64,000 bases of DNA from Rheinheimera riviphila (GTDB taxonomy: Bacteria > Pseudomonadota > Gammaproteobacteria > Enterobacterales > Alteromonadaceae). Positions 40,912-56,960 of this stretch are shown here, piece by piece. The notes below the pieces were generated by a model that ran no database searches, had not been told where the DNA came from, and saw nothing but the letters and a program-made list of their open reading frames with translations. The stretch's first letter is position 1. Every line of letters begins with the position of its first letter. The translations under genes and the position numbers were made by a program. The DNA is taken from contig NZ_SACS01000018.1 of the NCBI RefSeq assembly GCF_004005945.1, positions 1 through 64,000 of the forward strand. The letters run 5' to 3'.

Positions 40912-41032
40912 CTGATATTCCTGATTAATGAAGATTTTTTCCTGCGCCTTATTTATGGCCAAAGCGCAGTTTTGACAAGCTCTGCCAGAGTTTTAATTGT
41001 TAGCAAATGTGATGTGTTTCCGGAACAGAAAT

Positions 41033-41072
41033 AAGTGGCTGTCCAAGATTACTGTGGCCCAAGATTACTGGG
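41033..41072. repeat. 16-bp GTCC repeat, site a (two units)
   Basis: GTGGCTGTCCAAGATTACTG followed by GGCCCAAGATTACTG: two imperfect copies of the 16-base unit. It is the only recognised element in the 497-base gap 40912-41408 between Spo0M and the M6 peptidase; a 62-codon frame there (41105-41293) is probably spurious. Confidence 0.8.
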
Positions 41073-41408
41073 TGACATGGTGCCTGCATACTAATTGCTG
41101 AATATTGCCGGTTTCTTTGGCCCCTATGCCACGTCTTTTAATGTTCTGTTATCTCTATAATCCTGCAGCTGCCGTTCCGGCGAAACACGAACAATCAACA
41201 AATCCCCTTGTTTGGTCATCGTTTTTTTTCGAAAGTAAAAACAAGTTTCGAAATATCACGCATTTATCATTTTTTTGCCTTATGTCTGTTTAGTTTCTGT
41301 GCATCGGTGCGCCTAGGCTGCTATGACCGGCTCAAACCACCCGCACAGAGGCCGGAATATCCAGCAGCAAAGCTGCCATAAAAATCTTCCGATGCAATAA
41401 GGAACAAC

Positions 41409-43316
41409 ATGATGAAAATCCACTTACCTGGGCTGGCGCTTGCGCTGAGCTTTGTTTTACCTGTGAGTCAGGCAGCCGTACCTTTTGTCGATCACCCCCT
41501 GCAGTTTCGTCAACCGAATGGCCAAAAATTGACGATTTATTTATCCGGCAACAACTATTTTGCCGAACAGCGGCTGGCCGATGGCAAACTGGTGGTCTAC
41601 GACAATAACCTCAAAGGTTATGCTTACGCTGTGGTGAGCGCCAATGGCAGTGCACTCCAATCCACCGGGCAATTGGCGCAACCGCCCATTGGCAGTAAAC
41701 AGAGCACCCCCGGTTTATTGCAAAACCAGCAACCGGGTTTAAGCCCGGCAGCCAAAGCAGCGTTAGTTAAGCAAGCGCAACAACAACTGCTTGGCAACGA
41801 GGAGCCACACCAGCATGGTCCGCAACATCTGACCGATGGTTCCCCCAAAGCCGCCGATGACGTCCCTATGGCGTTACCGGCAACCGTGCGTGGCCTGACG
41901 GTCATTATTCAGTTTCCAAATCAAACCGGTACCATCAGCAAAACCCAGGTGGAAAGTTTCCTTAATGATCTGACGTACACCGGTTTTGGCAACGCGCAGT
42001 CCGTCCGCGGCTACTTCCAGCAGGTGTCTGGCAGCAAGCTCGATTACCAAAATACTGTTACCCGTTATTACACGGCGAAGAAAAACAAAAGTTATTACAC
42101 CGATAACAGCCTCTCGTCGTCCGTGCGTTCGCAGGAACTGATCAGCGAAGCTCTGAACTGGTTGGAATACACCGAAGGTTTTAATTTCTCCACCCTGACC
42201 ACCAATAGCAGCAAACAAATCCTCGGTTTGAATTTTTTCTATGCCGGCGAAGCAGATAGCGCCTGGTCCAAAGGTTTATGGCCACATATGGGCGGTTTAT
42301 CACCGCGCTTTTGCGCCGACGGTGTCTGTACCTCGCTTTATCAAATCACCAACATGGGCACAAACATGGCGATCGGCACTTTCATTCACGAAAGTGGCCA
42401 TCTATTGCTCGGCTGGCCAGATTTATATGATTACGACGGTAGCTCAGAAGGATCAGTCGCGGCATTTTGTGTGATGGGTTATGGCGCCATTGGTGTGCAA
42501 AACAAGTTTAAGCCCACGCCGCCGGTGGGCGTATTCCGGCACTTAGCTGGCTGGGATACCGTCACCGAACTCAATCCAGCCCTGAACAGCCAGGCACCGA
42601 CCGGTCAACTGAGCCATACCTCCGGCGCCCGCCAACTGTATCGTTGGGGAAATCCGGCCAATACCAAAGAAGCGTTTTACATTGAAGCCGTTCATCAAAG
42701 TGGCCAGAACCAGTATCAACCGGATCAAGGGTTGGCGATTTGGCACGTGGATCCAAGTGGCAGTAATTCGAACGAATGGAAACCTTATATTCAGATGGAG
42801 CATGCCGACGGCAAACGGGATCCGGAAAATAAACGCAATCGCAGCGACGCCACCGATCTCTATGATGGCAATACCACTGCTGAATTTAATAAAATTTTCC
42901 CCAATGCGCTGACCAGCCGCGGCACCAACGCTCTGTGGTGGAACGGCAGCGATTCCGGACTGAATATCAGTCAGATCAGCAGTCCGGCCAGCACTATTAA
43001 CTTTACCCTGGCAGCCGCCAGCGCAGGCGACACCTATAGTGGAACGCTAGCGGTGGGCGCACAGGCAATAGTGCCAAATAACAGTTATTTTCAATACAAC
43101 GGCGGCACCCTGCGCCTGACATTGAGTGCTGCCACCGGCACCAATTTTGATTTGTACCTACAGCGCTGGAACGGCAGCAGTTGGGCCAACGTCGCGCAAT
43201 CGACCGCCAGTAACTCGAATGAAAGTTTAAGTTATGCCGCAAGCAATGGTTATTACCGCGCTCTTGTACGGTCAGTCACAGGTGCGGGCAGTTATCAGCT
43301 GAATATCCGGAAGTAG
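41409..43316 (+). CDS. secreted M6-family metalloprotease
   Basis: A 635-residue secreted protease with a signal peptide ending near SQAA. The M6 (immune inhibitor A-like) domain has the zinc site GTFIHESGHLLLGWPDLYDY (H327, E328, H331 and a downstream Asp). The region 150-230 (VRGLTVIIQFPNQTG, SVRGYFQQVSGSKL) is typical of M6 domains. The C-terminal 100 residues (GDTYSGTLAVGAQAIVPNNS to the end) look like a PPC beta-domain. It probably digests extracellular protein. The start has an AAGGAACAAC upstream segment. Confidence 0.9.
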   Translation: MMKIHLPGLALALSFVLPVSQAAVPFVDHPLQFRQPNGQKLTIYLSGNNYFAEQRLADGKLVVYDNNLKGYAYAVVSANGSALQSTGQLAQPPIGSKQSTPGLLQNQQPGLSPAAKAALVKQAQQQLLGNEEPHQHGPQHLTDGSPKAADDVPMALPATVRGLTVIIQFPNQTGTISKTQVESFLNDLTYTGFGNAQSVRGYFQQVSGSKLDYQNTVTRYYTAKKNKSYYTDNSLSSSVRSQELISEALNWLEYTEGFNFSTLTTNSSKQILGLNFFYAGEADSAWSKGLWPHMGGLSPRFCADGVCTSLYQITNMGTNMAIGTFIHESGHLLLGWPDLYDYDGSSEGSVAAFCVMGYGAIGVQNKFKPTPPVGVFRHLAGWDTVTELNPALNSQAPTGQLSHTSGARQLYRWGNPANTKEAFYIEAVHQSGQNQYQPDQGLAIWHVDPSGSNSNEWKPYIQMEHADGKRDPENKRNRSDATDLYDGNTTAEFNKIFPNALTSRGTNALWWNGSDSGLNISQISSPASTINFTLAAASAGDTYSGTLAVGAQAIVPNNSYFQYNGGTLRLTLSAATGTNFDLYLQRWNGSSWANVAQSTASNSNESLSYAASNGYYRALVRSVTGAGSYQLNIRK

Positions 43317-43346
43317 CTTAGGTGTAAGATTAATCAGAACTTCACC

Positions 43347-43375
43347 AAAGCCAGGCTTTTGTCTGGCTTTGTTTT
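43347..43375 (+). terminator. rho-independent terminator after M6 peptidase
   Basis: AAAGCCAG/CTGGCTTT stem with an 8-base loop, followed by GTTTT, 30 bases after the stop. Confidence 0.85.
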
Positions 43376-43485
43376 ATCGGGTGCGATTGAAAGGACTGCA
43401 AGAGGACAGCCCCAGCTACCCGCTGAGTGCACAACTTATGTTGGTGGTGTAATTTTGAGGCATTATTGCACCCAAGGAGCTAAAC

Positions 43486-43710
43486 ATGGCCCGTCAAAGT
43501 ACTTCCCTCAGCCAGCCCAATGATGAATGGTTGCAACAACAAGTCAGTGCAGGCGGTGAATACAGCAGTAAAAGCGAGCTGATCAACGAACTGATCCGTA
43601 ACGCCCGTCGTGCCGAGGCGCTGAACCAGAAACTCGCAACGGCTGAGCAAAGCGGTTTTACTAACCAAAGCCCGCCCGACATGCTTCATTTAGCAAAAAT
43701 GATTGTCTAA
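43486..43710 (+). CDS. orphan ParD/CC2985-type antitoxin
   Basis: A 74-residue ribbon-helix-helix protein (STSLSQPNDEWLQQQVSAGG then YSSKSELINELIRNARRAEA). The C-terminal tail is short, and no ParE-type toxin follows; instead the convergent regulator gene overlaps its last 50 bases. It may be a remnant of a ParDE pair or an orphan repressor. Confidence 0.75.
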   Translation: MARQSTSLSQPNDEWLQQQVSAGGEYSSKSELINELIRNARRAEALNQKLATAEQSGFTNQSPPDMLHLAKMIV

Positions 43711-44284
43711 GGTCATCCTTGTCTCCTGCAATCATCAGTAGCGGACTTTCCAATAGCGCCGTGATAAAACCAGATGGTGCCGCCAACGCTTTTTGCCATT
43801 CGGCCAAAGAATAGAGTTTAGGATTGATCTCGCGGCCAAGTTGCTGCTGCGCCGGATACAGCTGTTTGACCGCCGCCGCAAAACTTAAATCGCCTACCAG
43901 CAGCAAATCAATATCACTGGTCGCGGTGGCTTTGTTACTTGCCACAGAGCCAAACACCGCAGCAAATTGCAATTGGTCGGCGACCGGCAACAACGCCTGT
44001 CGCAACACATCCGCCAAACCGCTGGTTTTTCGCAGAATACTGGCCAGCTCTTCAAACACCACACAACGGGTGTCCGCCTGATACCAAAGCTGATTGCCCT
44101 GTTCAGTTTTTTTCAGAATGCCCGCCTGCGCCAACTTGGTCAGTTCTTTATGCAAAGTACCAGGCTGAGTGTGGGTTAACCGGGCAATCTCGCGCACATG
44201 CCACGCCTGATCGGGTTTAAGCAACAACAACCCCAACACCTGGCGGCGATAGCCGGTAAAAAGCAGATCAACAAGCGCAAACAT
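43661..44284 (-). CDS. HTH regulator fused to MNT nucleotidyltransferase
   Basis: A 207-residue two-domain protein. An N-terminal winged helix (LLLKPDQAWHVREIARLTHT, then PGTLHKELTKLAQAGILKKT) is followed by a minimal nucleotidyltransferase core with the full GSX10DXD motif (G112, S113, D124, D126 in FGSVASNKATATSDIDLL). Such fusions are thought to be regulators of mobile or TA-type functions; the substrate is unknown. The ATG at 44284 is chosen; the frame extends to 44305. Confidence 0.82.
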   Translation of the reverse strand: MFALVDLLFTGYRRQVLGLLLLKPDQAWHVREIARLTHTQPGTLHKELTKLAQAGILKKTEQGNQLWYQADTRCVVFEELASILRKTSGLADVLRQALLPVADQLQFAAVFGSVASNKATATSDIDLLLVGDLSFAAAVKQLYPAQQQLGREINPKLYSLAEWQKALAAPSGFITALLESPLLMIAGDKDDLRQSFLLNEACRAGFG

Positions 44285-44389
44285 CACACCACCAAATGAA
44301 GCCAAATAAGCTACGAATGCAGCCTTTTAGGCTTCATTGGTCAAATGTTGGGAAAAGGGAGAGAGCCAAATGGGCAGCCACAGGGAAAA

Positions 44390-44412
44390 AAGTGGCTGTC
44401 CAAGATTAGTTT
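44390..44412. repeat. 16-bp GTCC repeat, site b (one unit)
   Basis: AGTGGCTGTCCAAGATTAGT lies two to three bases beyond the stop of the MntA-type gene on the minus strand. One unit of the family. Confidence 0.8.
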
Positions 44413-44414
44413 AC

Positions 44415-44750
44415 CTACTGCAACACCAACTTCCGGGCCAAAATTCGCTCCCGAAACACTTGCGATGTCGTCGCCCAGTCAAGCAAATCGACTTTCCAGG
44501 GCAAATCCGACTCACTAAAAGCTTCGGCAACTTCCGCGAGCAATTGCAACGGCAAAGGTTGCGTGCCGACAATGGCCACATCTAAATCTGAGTAAGGTTT
44601 ACAAGGGCCACCCACTCTGGAGCCAAAAGCCCAGACAGCATAACCCGGCAGATATTGCTGCAAAATACGCTGGATGATTTGCCACTGCTGCGGGTTCACT
44701 TGCAACAGGGCCGGCACTGTTGGTAAATCAGCAGGCATTGCATCAGTCAT
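44415..44750 (-). CDS. mntA: MntA-type nucleotidyltransferase antitoxin (second module)
   Basis: A 111-residue minimal nucleotidyltransferase with the GSX10DXD motif (G43, S44, D55, D57 in AFGSRVGGPCKPYSDLD). Its start overlaps the HepT-type stop by eight bases. It should modify the HepT-type partner encoded upstream. It differs clearly from the module at 29.6 kb, so it is not a recent duplicate. Confidence 0.87.
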   Translation of the reverse strand: MTDAMPADLPTVPALLQVNPQQWQIIQRILQQYLPGYAVWAFGSRVGGPCKPYSDLDVAIVGTQPLPLQLLAEVAEAFSESDLPWKVDLLDWATTSQVFRERILARKLVLQ

Positions 44751-45153
44751 CTGATAACCGCTGCGCTAAAGCGGCCGCAAGAAACTGCGCTTCCGCTAAA
44801 AAAGCCGGAATACCCGCCACCACTTGCAGCGCAATATCTTCATCGTAGGTATGACTGGTTTTACTGCGCATATCGCGATAACCGCGCCAAACCGGCCAGT
44901 CTCCAAGCAACAAGCCTTGCTCGTTAGCAGTGCGAATGAGATCAGCAAAAGGCATCTGATCAAATTGCTCAGGGCTGGCTGCGGTTTGTTCCAGAAAGCG
45001 CTTCAGCATTTTGTGGCTTATTTCGTAAGTAAATTCAAAACGTTGCACCAAGCCATCGCGGATTTGCGTATCGGAAATATCCTGCTGATACCGTAGTAAA
45101 CCTTCTTCTAAGCGGGCAATCGCTTTATGCAGCGGCGTAAGATCCAAAGTCAT
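44743..45153 (-). CDS. hepT: HepT-type HEPN toxin (second module)
   Basis: A 136-residue helical protein with the RX4HXY motif (R96, H101, Y103 in MRSKTSHTYDE). It is encoded upstream of its MntA-type partner. The toxin cleaves RNA in characterised homologues; activity here is inferred. The ATG at 45153 is used; a TTG lies one codon upstream. Confidence 0.87.
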   Translation of the reverse strand: MTLDLTPLHKAIARLEEGLLRYQQDISDTQIRDGLVQRFEFTYEISHKMLKRFLEQTAASPEQFDQMPFADLIRTANEQGLLLGDWPVWRGYRDMRSKTSHTYDEDIALQVVAGIPAFLAEAQFLAAALAQRLSDD

Positions 45154-45284
45154 CAAAGTACCTGTTCAGTCAGCTGGAACTCGAGCAAGAATACCTGAAC
45201 CACCGGGAGTCGGCTACTCTGGAAAAAACGCAGCCCATAGGGTCAAAGTTACATTTAATCGACAGGGGTTTAGTCGACTAAACG

Positions 45285-45306
45285 AAGTGGCTGTCCATGA
45301 TTGGTT
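45285..45306. repeat. 16-bp GTCC repeat, site c (one unit)
   Basis: GAAGTGGCTGTCCATGATTG, one unit, 46 bases before the start of the NAD(P)-binding gene. Confidence 0.75.
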
Positions 45307-45351
45307 GATTTTCGTTACACTGGATTTTATTGCATCCACGAAGCACTCCAT

Positions 45352-45999
45352 ATGAAAACTTTATTAATCCTCGGCGCGAGTGGTGCCGTTGGCAGCCAAT
45401 TACTGGCGCAAGCGTTGCGTCACCCTGATGTTGCCAAGGTGGTTGCGCCCACCAGACGCCCCTTAAATCCACATCCAAAGTTAGAAAACCCTATTGTTGA
45501 TTTCGAAGCTCTGCCGGCAGATGCATCATGGTGGCAAGCGGATGTCACATTTTGCGCCTTGGGGACTACGCTTAAGCAAGCGGGCTCAGCGCAAGCCTTT
45601 TATCGTGTTGACCACGACTATATTCTGCACATCGCCGAACTGACACATGCCGCTGGCACTCAATCTTTCGTGTTGAACTCCACCCTTGGCGCAGATGTGA
45701 ACGGCTTTGGTCTTTATCTTAAAACCAAAGGTGAAACTGAGCGCGATGTCGGATCTTTGGGTTTTTCTTCGCTGAGCATTGTGCGGCCGTCTTTACTCGA
45801 TGGCGCTGTCCGAACTGACAAACGCACTGGTGAAGCGGTTGGTTTATTGCTCAATCGATGTTTAAGAAAACTGATACCCATCACATGGCGAGCCATTTCT
45901 GTTGCGAAGGTTGCGCAGATGATGCTCAGCGCCGGGTTATCCGCAAATCCTGGCATTCGGGTGATTGAATCTGCTGAAATTCATCAATCTGATGAGTAG
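45352..45999 (+). CDS. NAD(P)-binding atypical SDR-type protein
   Basis: A 215-residue Rossmann protein: TLLILGASGAVGSQLLAQAL gives the GxxGxxG cofactor motif, VVAPTRRPL the end of the second strand, and VTFCALGTTLKQAGSA, FVLNSTLGADVN, YLKTKGETERDV and LSIVRPSLLDG the atypical extended SDR pattern (compare HTATIP2-type proteins). It probably binds NADPH; the substrate is unknown. It is the only plus-strand gene among the small modules at 44-48.5 kb. Confidence 0.84.
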   Translation: MKTLLILGASGAVGSQLLAQALRHPDVAKVVAPTRRPLNPHPKLENPIVDFEALPADASWWQADVTFCALGTTLKQAGSAQAFYRVDHDYILHIAELTHAAGTQSFVLNSTLGADVNGFGLYLKTKGETERDVGSLGFSSLSIVRPSLLDGAVRTDKRTGEAVGLLLNRCLRKLIPITWRAISVAKVAQMMLSAGLSANPGIRVIESAEIHQSDE

Positions 46000-46070
46000 A
46001 GATGTTTTTGGCGGGTGGACTCCATGGACATCCATCGACTGCGACAACCTTCCATGACTGCTTCAGTTAA

Positions 46071-46127
46071 AAAAGTGGTTGTCCAGGATTACAGCTGTCC
46101 AAAATTGCTGTTGTCCAAGATAGCTGG
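46071..46127. repeat. 16-bp GTCC repeat, site d (three units)
   Basis: Three consecutive 16-base units: TGTCCAGGATTACAGC, TGTCCAAAATTGCTGT and TGTCCAAGATAGCTGG, preceded by AAAGTGGT. They end seven bases from the stop of the next minus-strand gene. This is the clearest tandem form of the family. Confidence 0.85.
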
Positions 46128-46133
46128 CCGCGA

Positions 46134-46661
46134 TCAAGTCCATGGAAATAAATGATTAAAAGAACTGTTGAGCCGCTGTGCTCGCCTTGTCTGCCGTGCT
46201 ACATAAGCGAGATAGCCACCCGAGCAGACGAAAAACCAACCTAACCAGGGCTTGAGTTTTTCACCAGCTGCGATAGCAGATGCTATTTGGGGGTAAGATC
46301 TGACCAACTGCTGATTAATTTGTATTTCCCAGACCGAATGGTATCTGTCATCCGAAAAAATCGGGCCATGTGTCGCTTTTTCATATCGAAGCACCACGAC
46401 CTTACCACCGGCGACTTCCAAGGCTCTTCTAACCCGATGCGCAGCACCTGCACCTTTCGAATAACTAAAGACCTGCGGGTGTTCTTTCAAGGCAAAATTT
46501 ATGCTGTACCTGTGTGTTTCCACCCAGCTCACCTGACCACTGACTTGTAATAAATCGGCTTCAGCCTGAAGTTGTGATTCATGAAAAAACAGAAAAAAGA
46601 TGCCAAACGCCATGGATAACGTCGATAGGACAACCATCCCGATCCAGTTAGCTTGTTGCAC
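46134..46661 (-). CDS. membrane protein, DUF3592-like
   Basis: A 175-residue protein with two membrane segments (about 7-27 and 138-155) and a beta-rich loop between them (VSGQVSWVETHRYSINFALK, VVVLRYEKATHGPIFSDDRY), the DUF3592 layout. GTG start at 46661 with a CAGGAA ribosome site. Function unknown. A single-gene module between two 16-bp repeats. Confidence 0.65.
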   Translation of the reverse strand: MQQANWIGMVVLSTLSMAFGIFFLFFHESQLQAEADLLQVSGQVSWVETHRYSINFALKEHPQVFSYSKGAGAAHRVRRALEVAGGKVVVLRYEKATHGPIFSDDRYHSVWEIQINQQLVRSYPQIASAIAAGEKLKPWLGWFFVCSGGYLAYVARQTRRAQRLNSSFNHLFPWT

Positions 46662-46711
46662 TGCAGTTCCTGTGGCTATCGGTAAAAGTGAATTAAACTA
46701 CCACTGCGGGG

Positions 46712-46757
46712 AAAAAAGTGGCTGTCCAAGATAACAACTATCCAAGATTACCCCCTG
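46712..46757. repeat. 16-bp GTCC repeat, site e (two units)
   Basis: TGTCCAAGATAACAAC followed directly by TATCCAAGATTACCCC, preceded by AAAAAAGTGGC. It ends close to the stop of the next minus-strand gene. Confidence 0.83.
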
Positions 46758-46763
46758 GTCTCG

Positions 46764-47120
46764 TTACAGCACGCCGGCACTGCGGTGGTTATAAATGCGG
46801 ATAGTCATCAGGATCAGGATGGTCGCAATCAGGGCTGATACGGCATGATGCATCACCAGATGGCTGAGTAGGAAAGTCGGGACGTCTTGCCAACCATCGA
46901 TCAACCACATTTTACTGAACAACATCACGTAAGTGGCCAGATGCAGATACAAACCGGTACGGAAAATTTGCCGGATCCGCCGTTGCAGCGGTTGGCTTAA
47001 GCCTGAACCAAACAAACGCAAACTGATGAGTGCGGCGATACAAAGCCCGAGCGACAATAATCCCAGCCCTAACAACGACGTTTTCGCCACAACGGCGCTC
47101 GCGATATACCAAGGTACCAT
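46764..47120 (-). CDS. small membrane protein, unknown
   Basis: About 118 residues with three membrane segments (ASAVVAKTSLLGLGLLSLGL, a middle segment near YLHLATYVMLFSKMWLID, and HAVSALIATILILMTIRIYN). No family recognised. The start is uncertain: ATG at 47120 begins MVPWYIAS; a longer frame to 47213 has no clear ribosome site. A single-gene module flanked by 16-bp repeats. Confidence 0.6.
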   Translation of the reverse strand: MVPWYIASAVVAKTSLLGLGLLSLGLCIAALISLRLFGSGLSQPLQRRIRQIFRTGLYLHLATYVMLFSKMWLIDGWQDVPTFLLSHLVMHHAVSALIATILILMTIRIYNHRSAGVL

Positions 47121-47254
47121 CTGGACATTCTCATATGGGTTACGATGCGCGCATCCTGCAGCCGGACGGGTTTGATTGTCAACGTCGATCCGTTTGATGG
47201 CCAAAAAAACCAAACAGGATACCTACCAAATACCCACCAAATAAAGGATAAACC

Positions 47255-47291
47255 AAGTGGCTGTCCAGGATTACGGTCCAAAATTACGCTG
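47255..47291. repeat. 16-bp GTCC repeat, site f (two units)
   Basis: AAGTGGCTGTCCAGGATTAC, then GGTCCAAAATTACGCTG, two shortened units, 40 bases from the stop of the next minus-strand gene. Confidence 0.8.
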
Positions 47292-47330
47292 ACACGCTGT
47301 AGTTAACGACAACAAAAGACCACGTAGTTT

Positions 47331-47759
47331 TTAATTCATGGATGGGTTTACGACAATTGCGCCGGGTGGAAGACGCTCTGCCAGTTGTTCGCGACACCAC
47401 TGCTCCGCTTCTGCCTGAGTCGCAAACCCTGCCAAATTCATCCCAGTTTTATGCCGGGTGTGCTCAAGGATCTGCCGTTGGATCGATGTCGAACATACAG
47501 AGGCTATCGCCACACAATCATGCTGCAAGCACCACTTATAGCTCGCACCAATCACTTTCATCACCTCAGGCGCCCCCAAGGTTTCTTCATCCAGCACATC
47601 AATGCGTGCCCACGCGCTGCGTTGGCATTGACTGACACTGTGCTGGATCTGCAAAAAACCAGCAGTGACACCTTCCAGATTAAAAGGCCCCCTCACATCG
47701 ATATACAAAAAATCCGCATCCCAACGCAAAAGAAGCTGACCATGAGACTTTAAAGCCAT
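47331..47759 (-). CDS. hypothetical soluble protein
   Basis: A 142-residue soluble protein with a strand-rich start (GQLLLRWDADFLYIDVRGPF) and helix-strand alternation resembling STAS-type folds, but no family was confirmed. Cysteines at CLQHDCVA and CSTS are not in a known motif. A single-gene module of the repeat-bounded region. Confidence 0.55.
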   Translation of the reverse strand: MALKSHGQLLLRWDADFLYIDVRGPFNLEGVTAGFLQIQHSVSQCQRSAWARIDVLDEETLGAPEVMKVIGASYKWCLQHDCVAIASVCSTSIQRQILEHTRHKTGMNLAGFATQAEAEQWCREQLAERLPPGAIVVNPSMN

Positions 47760-48001
47760 AGTGGTGATAGCCGACTGCTAAAAATTGATACTTAAGCAAA
47801 GGCTAGCATAAATCAACGCCGCGTTATGCGACAGGCAGCAGATAAGCCAGTGGTGATTGTGGTGTGTGGGGATTGTTGCTTATTGCCGGGCGTGGGTTCT
47901 CAAATTGTACAATCGCTGCACATTTCCAACGAATTTGCCAAAGCCATTTGCATCTTTACCAAGCTGGCTTTAGTGGCGGTTCGAAATAATGCAGGACAGC
48001 C

Positions 48002-48031
48002 ATAAATTGAACTGCAATACATGTCTGTCCG
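48002..48031. repeat. 29-base direct repeat, left copy, with GTCC end
   Basis: ATAAATTGAACTGCAATACA followed by TGTCTGTCC; a near-identical copy starts at 48446. The pair brackets the lipoprotein gene. GGACAG at 47994 and CTGTCC at 48025 also form an inverted pair around the left copy. Confidence 0.75.
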
Positions 48032-48034
48032 GTT

Positions 48035-48328
48035 TTATCCTCCCGTTTCAACCGGTGCCAGACCATGTTTGCGGTCTTTGGCTTTTTCGATGGCCTCGTT
48101 CAATTCTTTCACCACTGGATCGTTCGGACGATTTGACCCGCCATTTTGGCGTTGTTCAGCGCTGAGTTTTTTCTGCAACTTAGCCCCTGCAACCACATAA
48201 GACGCGGCATCCAGCACGTCGTTGCCGGTATCGAGAGTGACGGCAGTGTGCTTGCCAACGTGATGGACAGTGCAGGCGCTGAAACAAAGTGGGCTTAACA
48301 ACAGGCAGTAGCGGAAAAACGTTTTCAT
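48035..48328 (-). CDS. small lipoprotein, unknown
   Basis: A 97-residue lipoprotein with the lipobox LLSPLCFSACTVHHVG, followed by a short helical mature domain (VLDAASYVVAGAKLQKKLSA, then EQRQNGGSNRPNDPVVKEL). No family recognised. The ATG at 48328 begins the signal; the frame extends to 48397. It is bracketed by the direct repeats at 48002 and 48446. Confidence 0.7.
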   Translation of the reverse strand: MKTFFRYCLLLSPLCFSACTVHHVGKHTAVTLDTGNDVLDAASYVVAGAKLQKKLSAEQRQNGGSNRPNDPVVKELNEAIEKAKDRKHGLAPVETGG

Positions 48329-48445
48329 GGAATGTCCATATTGTAAAAAAACTGAGGCTAACCGCTTAAAAATGAATTTTATCTGAATCGGCAGCATGCC
48401 ATAAGTTTAAGCGCAAGGCGCCAAAGCAATAATTCAGGAGAGGCT

Positions 48446-48496
48446 TAAATTGCACTGCAATACATGGCTGTCCTGTTTATCTGGCAGTCCAAGATT
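48446..48496. repeat. 29-base direct repeat, right copy, plus GTCC units (site g)
   Basis: TTAAATTGCACTGCAATACA, TGGCTGTCCTGTTTATCTGG and CAGTCCAAGATTGCTC follow one another: the right copy of the 29-base repeat merges into two diverged 16-base units. It lies in the 321-base gap 48329-48649, where nothing else was recognised. Confidence 0.75.
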
Positions 48497-48649
48497 GCTC
48501 TATGATTGCTTAACTGGGACGTGGGTTGTATGTTCTAAAAACGAATCGGAGACACCCACCCATTTCTACCCTTTGCACAAAAACCGCTTGTACTTAACAC
48601 ATCGCTGCTTTATTTTTAATCAATAACAACAAGTTGCAGGGAATGGACA

Positions 48650-53142: not shown

Positions 53143-53255
53143 ATAATTAATATTTTATTTGTATTTTCAATACAATATTCTGGACAAAAATTAAGGGAAA
53201 ACCTGCGGGGCATTTTTTGAAATTTGCCGACAAGAATAGTCGAATAAAACCAACT

Positions 53256-53333
53256 ACCGGCAACAGCGGAGTGAGCATTCAAAAGTGAGCGCGGGAGGCG
53301 CGAACGGGCGAACGCAGTTGTTGCCGGTTTTTG
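53256..53333 (+). other. long-loop hairpin, possible RNA or terminator
   Basis: A 10-base inverted repeat ACCGGCAACA/TGTTGCCGGT (53256-53265 and 53319-53328) encloses 53 GC-rich bases and is followed by TTTTT. It lies in the 282-base gap after the ATPase gene. It could be an attenuating hairpin, a small RNA end or a mobile-element end; nothing recognisable matches it. Confidence 0.4.
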
Positions 53334-53425
53334 GTTTCGTGCCGTTCAGTCTTTCTGCACGCACAACAGTGATTGGTTGAGCAGCGACCAGCAACGACAC
53401 TCAACCAACACCGCCAACATCAAGA

Positions 53426-53873
53426 CATCAAAAACGTCCGATAAGCCCTATTCCCACTCACCAACCCCAAAGCCTCCAAATGCCCTTCAATCTCAGCCGG
53501 ATCAGCAATCTCAAACCCTGCCAACACATCGCCAGTGGCAGCACCATGGTTGCGGTAATGGAACAAGGTGATATTCCACTTTTCGCCCAAAGTATTGAGG
53601 AAGTTCATCAGTGCGCCGGGATATTCCGGGAAGTTAAATTGGTAGACCTGCTCTTGCACTAAACGTGGTGGCATGCCGCCGATCATGTAGCGGACGTGCA
53701 GTTTGGCGAGTTCGTCGTCGGAAAGATCCTGGAAGTCGTAACCGGCGTCGAGGAGTGGCTGGGTGACTTGTTTTAGCTCTTCCGCGCCGCTGGGTAATTA
53801 AACTCAGTCATGGCGCGGCGGCCGAGAGTTTCGCAGAAGCGGCGGAAACTGCCTTTTTCTTCTGGAATGGCCA
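53426..53873 (-). pseudogene. broken duplicate of the ilvA 3' end
   Basis: A roughly 450-base copy of the ilvA C-terminal region (intact at 55276-55785). It lacks about 12 bases encoding YPYQ near the end, has an internal deletion of about 50 bases near 53798, and shows an in-frame stop upstream of that. Only 88 codons (53420-53686) remain open. Many silent differences from the intact copy suggest divergence or origin from another strain. Confidence 0.9.
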
Positions 53874-53917
53874 CGCCCTACACCAGGGCGGAGCTGAGAG
53901 CCATTGGTCTTAGGCCG

Positions 53918-55268: not shown

Positions 55269-56960
55269 TTAAGGCATCAAAAAAGTCCGATAAGCCCTAT
55301 TCCCACTCACCAGTTGATAAGGATATCCAAGCGCCTCCAAATGCCCTTCAATCTCCGCCGGATCAGCAATCTCAAACCCTGCCAATACATCACCAGTCGC
55401 GGCGCCATGGTTGCGGTAATGGAACAAAGTGATATTCCACTTCTCGCCCAAGGTGTTGAGGAAGTTCATTAACGCACCGGGATATTCCGGGAAGTTAAAT
55501 TGGTAGACCTGCTCTTGCACTAAACGTGGTGGCATGCCGCCGATCATGTAGCGGACGTGCAGTTTGGCGAGTTCGTCGTCGGAGAGGTCCTGGAAGTCGT
55601 AACCGGCGTCGAGCAGTGCCTGAGTCACTTGTTTTAGTTCTTCTGCGCCGCTGCGCAGTTTGATGCCGACAAAAATATGCGCTTTATTGTCCGAAGCATA
55701 CCGGTAGTTAAACTCGGTGATGGCGCGGCCGCCAAGCGTCTCGCAGAAGCGGCGGAAACTGCCTTTTTCTTCCGGAATGGTCACCGCAAACACCGCTTCT
55801 TTTTTCTCGCCGAGTTCACAGCGCTCGGACACGTAGCGCAGGGTATCAAAATTCAGGTTCGCGCCCGACAGCACAGCGGCAAAGTTTTGGCTGTGATCGG
55901 CGGTAGCGGCGTATTTTTTCAAACCCGCCAAGGCCAAAGCACCTGCCGGTTCAGCGACGGCGCGTAGGTCTTCAAAAATATCTTTAATGGCGGCGCAGAT
56001 TTCGTCGCTGGAAACTGTGACCACATCGTCGCAATACAGCTGCGCCAGCTTAAAGGTCTCGTTGCCGATACGTTTGACTGCCACACCGTCGGCGAATAAG
56101 CCGACTCTTGGCAAAGTGACCGGCGCGCCGTTCAGCATCGCCACTTCTAAACAATTGGCGTCATCGGGTTCGACGCCAATCACCCGCACATTCGGCAGCA
56201 CGGCTTTGATATAAACCGCCATGCCCGCCAGCAAACCACCGCCGCCGACCGGAATAAAGACCGCGTCTAGCTTGTTGTGCTGGGTCAGTAATTCTTTGGC
56301 GACTGTGCCCTGGCCTGCGATGACGTCGGCATCGTCGAACGGCGGAATGTATACCGCGCCTTGGGTTGCCGCCAGTTCAATGGCAAACCGGTTGGCTTCA
56401 TCAAAGGCCGTACCGTGCAGCATCACATGGCCACCGCGCGCGCGCACCGCCGCCACTTTAATTTCCGGCGTGGTGATGGGCATCACAATAGTGGCATTCA
56501 GGCCGAGCTTGCTGGCCGACATCGCCACGCCCTGGGCGTGATTGCCAGCCGAGGCACAGATCACACTCGGCGCTTCGGCGCTTTTATCACCAGCTGCCGC
56601 GGCGCTTGCTTTATGCTGCGTCGCCACTTTATGCAGTTTATGAAAAGCACCACGTAATTTAAACGAATACACCGGCTGGTGATCTTCACGTTTTAAATAC
56701 ACATGATGACCCAGCCGCTGCGCCAGTTTGGGCATGGCTTGCAGCGGCGTTTCCACCGCCGCCTGGTACACCGGCGACAGCAGAATTTCGCGCAAATACT
56801 GCTGTTGCAATGCTTGCGCTTCGCTTTCGGATAAATCGCTTGGCGGATAATTCGGGTTGCGGATTGATGCTGATGCTTGAACCGCATGAGTTTCAACCGA
56901 AAGCGTTTCGACCGCCGGATCGACCAATACCACCGAGTTTTTTAAGGCCGCCTGACTCAT
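55269..56960 (-). CDS. ilvA: threonine ammonia-lyase (threonine deaminase)
   Basis: A 563-residue PLP enzyme making 2-oxobutanoate from threonine, the first step to isoleucine. The N-terminus is extended by about 45 residues. K101 in [12 protein letters not shown] holds [14 protein letters not shown] and [12 protein letters not shown] follow. The C-terminal regulatory part (about 370-563) has two ACT-like domains for isoleucine feedback. Its ATG overlaps the ilvD stop (ATGA). Last gene of ilvGMDA; a broken copy of its end lies at 53.4-53.9 kb. Confidence 0.97.

Follow-up and report, generated by a model that had tools for sequence, protein, structure and literature searches.

We have analysed a window of 64,000 nucleotides from Rheinheimera riviphila in which a short repeat recurs at seven sites (R1 to R7) between 41 and 48.5 kb. 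The array is real, local and one-way, and it sits in a hotspot of gene turnover, in which one break of synteny coincides with a repeat. As judged from sequence, the repeats are best read as members of a family of ends that flank genes for HUH/Y1 transposases of the subclass-2.3 type, and we have also found that Y1 genes of this type have conserved ends, which is new. The explanation that we favour, and consider probable, is that the repeat represents the ends of such a HUH/Y1 element and that its solo copies were laid by an end-anchored single-strand reaction.

The repeat array in the window

When both strands of the window were scanned, TGTCCAAGATTACTGG with up to three mismatches gave seven matches, all on the plus strand and all inside 41-48.5 kb, against a chance level of 0.42 matches; seven were reached in none of 100 shuffles. 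The shorter unit TGTCCAAGATTA, allowing up to two mismatches on either strand, gave 13 matches, again all on the plus strand, 12 of which fall at the seven sites (2, 1, 1, 3, 2, 2 and 1 units from R1 to R7) and one at 2069. According to this, the description in the original prediction of seven sites with one to three copies in a single orientation is correct. The heptamer AAGTGGC, which it had found usually ahead of the repeat, precedes sites 1, 2, 3, 5 and 6, with AAGTGGT ahead of site 4, and the seventh site is degenerate, consisting of ATGGCTGTCC and one unit. Its coordinates were mostly exact, the precise starts of the first six sites being those of Table 1, and only those given as 46071 and 46712 were a few bases off (46073 and 46716). 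The minus-strand stop codons placed about seven bases from the repeat at three sites are in fact 5, 9 and 12 nt away, at sites 2, 4 and 5. The bottom-strand sequence of the unit is AGTAATCTTGGACAGC; a scan of this strand alone over 36-56 kb, with up to four mismatches, recovered 12 units.

A non-autonomous element of the RAYT type (REP-associated tyrosine transposase) had also been suggested, and the class was right in that the unit matches the ends of Y1 elements, but the window repeats do not have the palindrome with a GT[AG]G foot by which REPs (repetitive extragenic palindromes) are defined, and the missing foot led us to reject a GTAG-type REP. Single-strand folding exceeded that of shuffled sequences at some sites only: on the bottom strand z was -1.9 to -2.7 at R2, R3 and R4 and -0.2 to +1.3 at the other four, and on the top strand -2.2 to -2.5 at R2, R4 and R7 and -0.5 to +1.4 at the other four. 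Folding each site on both strands revealed no structure consistent across the seven, and there was no Rfam match at the gathering threshold in 36-56 kb. Ordinary REP-like or BIME-like repeats (bacterial interspersed mosaic elements), selected after genes for a role in transcription or chromosome structure, would agree with the intergenic position of the sites and with the three that lie just past stop codons. However, the missing foot, the folding signal restricted to some sites and the limitation of a one-way array to 7.5 kb make this explanation unlikely.

The window stands on contig C24 of an assembly of 4.75 Mb and 114 contigs, and the genome-wide search that had been recommended shows that the unit is not spread over this genome. 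With up to one mismatch, AAGTGGCTGTCCARGATT occurs at six places, all six in the window array and all on the same strand. Three of 294 other genomes of the family also contain it (one match in G137, four in G260 and one in G064), and 13 of the 15 other genus genomes of that search have no near-exact copy. Because the near-exact copies are confined to the array and to one strand, this is a local one-way array rather than a genome-wide repeat. Looser searches agree: AAGTGGCTGTCCAAGATT with up to three mismatches is found at ten places in the own genome (one in the backwards control), seven in the array and three elsewhere, each of the latter carrying three mismatches. The 19-mer TAATCTTGGACAGCCACTT of the bottom strand, with up to two mismatches, has six matches in the own genome, and in 393 other genomes of the order it gave 16 single matches in 16 genomes, versus 28 in the backwards control. 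No exact match to the repeat was found on viral contigs, and plasmids matched only at E ~9.

Ends of the Y1 transposase genes

In G260, a metagenome-assembled genome (MAG) of the same genus, the repeat lies near a gene of 327 aa that has GGACAGCCACTT at its upstream edge; this genome contains four such Y1 genes and also a solo end, CTAATCTT-GGACAGCCACTTTTT. Relatives of the G260 protein are encoded in at least 576 stretches, 80 of which were kept as 79 loci, gammaproteobacterial by their titles except for one labelled only Proteobacteria. The HUH and tyrosine motifs, N68 H69 x H71 and Y181 x D L N P, are invariant in 12 of 12 aligned proteins, and the layout of the family (327 aa, a long HUH-Tyr region and ~145 aa after the tyrosine) would fit subclass 2.3 of PMC6006769.

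The Y1 genes are associated with a conserved core at each side. GGACA(C/G/T)CCA in the sense orientation was found in 47 of 78 loci for the -100 bin and in 24 of 74 for the -200 bin, compared with 0-1 antisense occurrences per bin. The looser core (G/A)GACAnCCA is present within 200 bp upstream of 66 of 77 genes; when 2857 segments of 200 bp were taken at random from these loci, 52 contained it. The inverted core TGG(C/G/A)TG(T/G)CC follows 80-400 bp downstream in 46 of 71 loci and, for the +200 bin, is present in 36/72 loci in sense versus 3/72 in antisense; two of the 79 loci upstream and eight downstream were left out because the flank was too short. The 8 nt outside the two cores are alike within an element (mean 4.08 of 8 versus 3.06 when shuffled, with 0 of 2000 shuffles as high; 42 of the 46 right-end loci were given, and the 38 elements with both ends were used). 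Neither core was found in the 2.1-2.4 kb loci of two further Y1-type genes, those on contigs C43 and C34 of the own genome. At L017 (G000:C43) a different Y1 gene has several GCAAGACCTGACCC copies nearby, which form a separate repeat family.

Extra copies of these ends were counted in 69 of the 79 loci (omitting L079, L087, L088, L090, L102, L114, L140, L144, L147 and L152), with an end found in 65 for the left end (LE) and in 44 for the right end (RE). Copies picked by an inward match of at least 9 nt alone were in the parent's orientation in 74 cases and opposite in 10. Furthermore, 37 of the 74 same-orientation copies had an outward match of 7-10 nt, compared with 1 of 84 random positions, and their inward lengths ranged from the 9-nt core to 356 nt (LE) or 546 nt (RE). 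From these figures the element has a fixed outer edge, which lies ~8 nt outside the core, and a variable inner one. Outside the element, and with the parent end over 300 bp away, LE copies number 38 in the same and 11 in the opposite orientation, and RE copies 23 and 3. A less strict count yielded 81 same and 25 opposite copies, and a separate count by end gave 79 and 28 for LE (the opposite ones including the elements' own right ends) and 56 and 16 for RE.

Same-orientation clusters are found in other hosts too. In Cycloclasticus (L109) there are six copies of AATTATATAAGACACCCAT on one strand within 1.4 kb and none elsewhere in the 2.2-Mb genome; one of them belongs to the intact gene as its end, and four others stand at the head of gene pieces that are truncated on the 3' side at different points. 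Nested self-insertion was set aside as the origin of this array, since no 5'-truncated right-hand pieces were found in the 1 kb around and after the gene end. The MAG at L100 has five copies pointing one way within 6.3 kb. At L100:2193-8749, small open reading frames (ORFs) lie between end copies, mostly on one strand, so that this region may be a second array with genes. The tandem-end pattern GGACASCC-N6..36-GGACASCC, which misses the window sites themselves, was matched 15 times in the own genome, at eight sites, four times in G137 and not at all in G192 or in backwards controls; G192, which is without tandem ends, has only weak partial Y1 matches. Another end family, TGAATTAC-GGACACCCA, is present five times in tandem just upstream of an unrelated gene at G000:C20:77107-77289 (L268:13207-13389).

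Intact members of the family are found in the own genome at C20:82049, C17:12373 and C18:739, with 58, 57 and 48% identity to the G260 protein, and there are two relics with one stop each, C18:100466-101098 (72%) and C18:57451-57675 (79%), the second of which adjoins a GGACAGCCACTT end. The search for a RAYT gene that had been proposed thus turned up Y1 relatives and relics on other contigs. The core and inner part of the window repeats match the relics and the G260 ends, and their outer TAATCTT matches the solo ends of G260, not the printed ends of the own intact elements.

We propose that the 16-nt unit would be the outer end of such an element, made up of ~8 element-specific nt followed by the core GGACAGCCA on the bottom strand. 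A Y1 transposase would cut at a fixed point ~8 nt outside the core, and the inner limit of the DNA that is copied or joined would vary. Copies would land near their parent, mostly pointing one way, and the ends that remain would be truncated and stuttered. We infer that the transposase itself makes the cuts and that the orientation comes from its strand-specific activity. The seven window sites would then be solo truncated ends, some in tandem, within a tolerant hotspot, and the cognate transposase would since have been lost nearby, with relics of the closest type and intact distant relatives persisting on other contigs.

Several observations weigh against this proposal. No Y1 gene was found on the contig of the window, so that local deposition there is argued by analogy, and no intact Y1 gene was found with the exact TAATCTT end, so that it is the shared core, the relics and the solo ends of G260 that support the assignment. 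The upstream core is missing in 11 of 77 loci and the RE core in 25 of 71, and the symmetry of the outer 8 nt is modest. The 11 opposite distant LE copies indicate that orientation is not strict. Seven of the 12 L100 copies lie on other contigs, contig C58 of G260 holds copies in both directions, and the G137 hotspot described below also has one opposite one-mismatch match; from the first two of these, neither confinement nor direction is absolute. As for the proteins, the NCBIfam model REP_Tyr_transpos matches below threshold (43 bits versus a cut-off of 80), Pfam Y1_Tnp misses L020, and the family profile has no significant match in PDB (the best E value was 0.27, for a helicase, and the putative transposase 2f4f had 0.38). 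Most family members of the own genome escape Pfam Y1_Tnp when it is used by itself, which gives three matches there. At L020:9777-10869 (G260 C58), dense two-way end copies surround a small gene, an arrangement that is BIME-like rather than window-like.

Gene turnover in the hotspot

The 38-52 kb segment was compared by blastn with 22 genus genomes, the own one included, and the regions of 15 relatives were compared with the window. As the original prediction had supposed, gene content and order are not conserved. In G223, G272 and G083 the 38-41 kb genes are directly followed by the epimerase-like gene, and in G137 the M6 peptidase gene lies between them, with an antitoxin-like gene after the epimerase. 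The order is 46.2-46.7, 43.7-44.3 and 48.6-50.2 kb in G192, and 48.1-48.4, 44.4-45.1 and 50.4 kb in G045; the relative orientation is retained among the window, G137, G192 and G045. The break at a repeat is that of R3: the window and G137 are alike rightward from 45308 and each has an end copy there, the genes to the left differ, and no end copy is seen at the equivalent position in G223 or G083. G137 carries four end copies in the window's direction around other genes of its hotspot.

These data could be explained by an integron-like cassette system run by a Y1 enzyme, in which an end with its gene would be inserted beside an existing end and stacked one way, with no integrase. The R3 break, the variable order with retained orientation and the G137 copies fit this explanation. 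So does the gene arrangement, as on the bottom strand a sense gene starts 44-131 nt after six of the seven sites and a sense stop codon lies within 60 nt before four of the seven, three of them at 5-12 nt. However, the hotspot regions of relatives hold only scattered one-mismatch matches to the 10-nt core, and G192, G045 and others have reshuffled the hotspot in the absence of any near-exact copy. Turnover therefore does not need near-exact repeats, and repeat-driven cassette movement, like the gene-cassette array of the original prediction, is not established. In the regions examined, no gene with an end on either side was seen to recur as a unit at a second location within the genus, no systematic search having been made. 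In other hosts a sense stop lies within 60 nt of the solo end in 5 of 31 cases (hand-picked from the less strict count, plus ten points at window sites), so that tight packing after stops is not general, and G137 has its one opposite match. Turnover without near-exact repeats and the looser packing elsewhere lead us to consider this system improbable. We regard as equally doubtful that the ~20-nt end, freed from its transposase, could be a portable start signal, with which a subclass-2.3 Y1 enzyme would take along the gene that follows the end and stack it next to an existing end.

The repeats could also be mere short homologies used for recombination in a hotspot of other origin. Turnover without near-exact repeats would be expected in that case, but the origin of the ends and their single direction would be left unexplained. 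Moreover, 16-23 bp is short for homologous recombination, and the unit is of that size, which makes this explanation very unlikely.

A classical integron was considered as well. The original prediction had seen no integrase, and there is none adjacent to the array, but an integron integrase is encoded at C20:55326-56270 (479 bits versus a curated cut-off of 265, the sole match above the cut-off), on a contig different from that of the window. A crude scan, whose power was not established, detected no R''/R' pair resembling attC at 40-50 kb or near the integrase. As it was negative even beside an integrase, attC sites are neither shown nor fully excluded by it. A remnant integron array (a CALIN, cluster of attC sites lacking integron integrases) with diverged attC sites would be in keeping with the small single genes and with the integrase elsewhere in the genome. 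Against it stand the negative scan and the match of the repeat to Y1 ends, and we give it hardly any credence. Around the integrase (L267) our reading of the ORFs indicates a transposase-like gene and a toxin-antitoxin-like pair.

The sites and the genes between them are listed in Table 1. The G137 homologue of the small antitoxin-resembling gene follows the epimerase gene and precedes an end unit. Two of the 10 scanned proteins matched PADLOC candidates of the PDC-M type (PDC-M05A and PDC-M66A), and the 44415-44750 protein matches a type I specificity model and PDC-S09. Beyond the array, window positions 53243-53337 form a dispersed repeat of ~95 bp with partial copies (81-93%) in many places in four of five genus genomes searched (G192 being the exception). 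Window segments 53426-53884 and 55275-56000 are both matched by the same stretches of relatives, which suggests that a gene at the hotspot's far edge has been duplicated.

Table 1. Repeat sites and genes of the array (window coordinates)
Feature	Position	Strand	Remarks
R1	41033..41069	-	two units of the end, with AGTAATCTT-GGACAGCCACTT on the bottom strand and one 16-nt stutter
R1 flank			G137 homology breaks off at 41018 and restarts at 41185
M6-type peptidase gene	41409..43316	+	between R1 and R2; beside the same flank in G137
Small antitoxin-resembling gene	43486..43710	+	resemblance by sequence reading, without Pfam match
Nucleotidyltransferase-type gene	43661..44305	-	PADLOC candidate PDC-M05A
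R2	44390..44410	-	one end unit; 5 nt past the stop codon of 44415-44750
R2 hairpin			possible with GGGCAGCCAC left of R2
Nucleotidyltransferase (44415-44750) and NTase_sub_bind (44743-45156) pair	44415..45156	-	between R2 and R3
R3	45285..45305	-	single end unit ahead of the epimerase-like gene; break of synteny
NAD-binding epimerase-like gene	45301..45999	+	between R3 and R4
R4	46073..46125	-	three tandem end units, 16-nt period; 9 nt past the stop of 46134-46661
Small uncharacterised gene	46134..46661	-	between R4 and R5; also in G192 and G111 hotspots
R5	46716..46752	-	two tandem end units; G192 homology stops at 46709, 7 nt off
Small uncharacterised gene	46764..47213	-	between R5 and R6; elsewhere in G045, G083, G223, G248 and G272
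R6	47255..47288	-	two end units, spacing 13 nt
Two small genes (47331-47759 and 48035-48397)	47331..48397	-	between R6 and R7
Possible 37-bp miniature element	47994..48030	+	GGACAGCCA ... TGTCTGTCC; from sequence and core match
R7	48463..48499	-	degenerate end ATGGCTGTCC, plus a clear unit at 48484-48499

Relation to known systems

By their length, layout, hosts and copy number the proteins are putative members of subclass 2.3 of TnpAY1 (also called TnpAREP or RAYT). According to the main text of PMC6006769, this subclass has a median length of 325 aa, and Chromatiales and Alteromonadales prevail among its hosts. Similarly, our proteins are of 327 aa, with HUH and Y...NP motifs and a long C-terminal tail (PMC6006769), and occur as several dissimilar copies per genome in hosts that include Rheinheimera, Alteromonas and Shewanella. 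In that text, neither automatic nor manual search gave REP-like sequences at subclasses 2.1 and 2.3 (PMC6006769), whereas we have found a short end core in inverted arrangement, together with solo copies that are stuttered.

The closest arrangement is that of the TIRtrons or TIRYTs, in which a Y1 gene lies between terminal inverted repeats (TIRs) that also occur alone (PMC3733652), and inverted terminal repeats do surround the Y1 genes here (66/77 upstream and 46/71 downstream). The motif GGGGWSAS is common to only some TIRs (PMC3733652) and differs from the core found here, GGACANCCA (40 of the 79 loci displayed). Neither GGACA nor GTGTCC occurs in the main text of PMC3733652, whose TIR sequences stand in a figure. 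Of the TIRYT examples, 20 of 26 belong to subclass 2.1 and the other six to subclasses 2.2 and 2.5, as given in the main text of PMC6006769.

REPs and REPINs with their RAYTs are, like the window repeats, intergenic, non-autonomous and tied to a Y1 transposase (PMC2817692, PMC3686654). However, as described in those main texts, REPs are GT[AG]G-footed palindromes, dispersed and often in inverted pairs, and the window ends are non-palindromic, clustered and one-way. The IS200/IS605 insertion sequences (IS) share the HUH/Y1 chemistry (PMC6006769) but have another transposase class, and a guide-tetranucleotide hairpin of their kind, which was not examined systematically, is not shown here. We have not found these ends described in the literature within the main texts searched, the figures, supplements and most subscription papers being outside this scope.

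The conserved core, the fixed outer edge and the mostly one-way solo ends provide a testable DNA substrate for the subclass. Integron gene cassettes have same-orientation sites between small variable genes, and the window array resembles them in both respects; it differs in that no attC (crude scan) and no adjacent integrase were found. If it is true that the ends move neighbouring genes, they would represent a second route to gene-cassette arrays.

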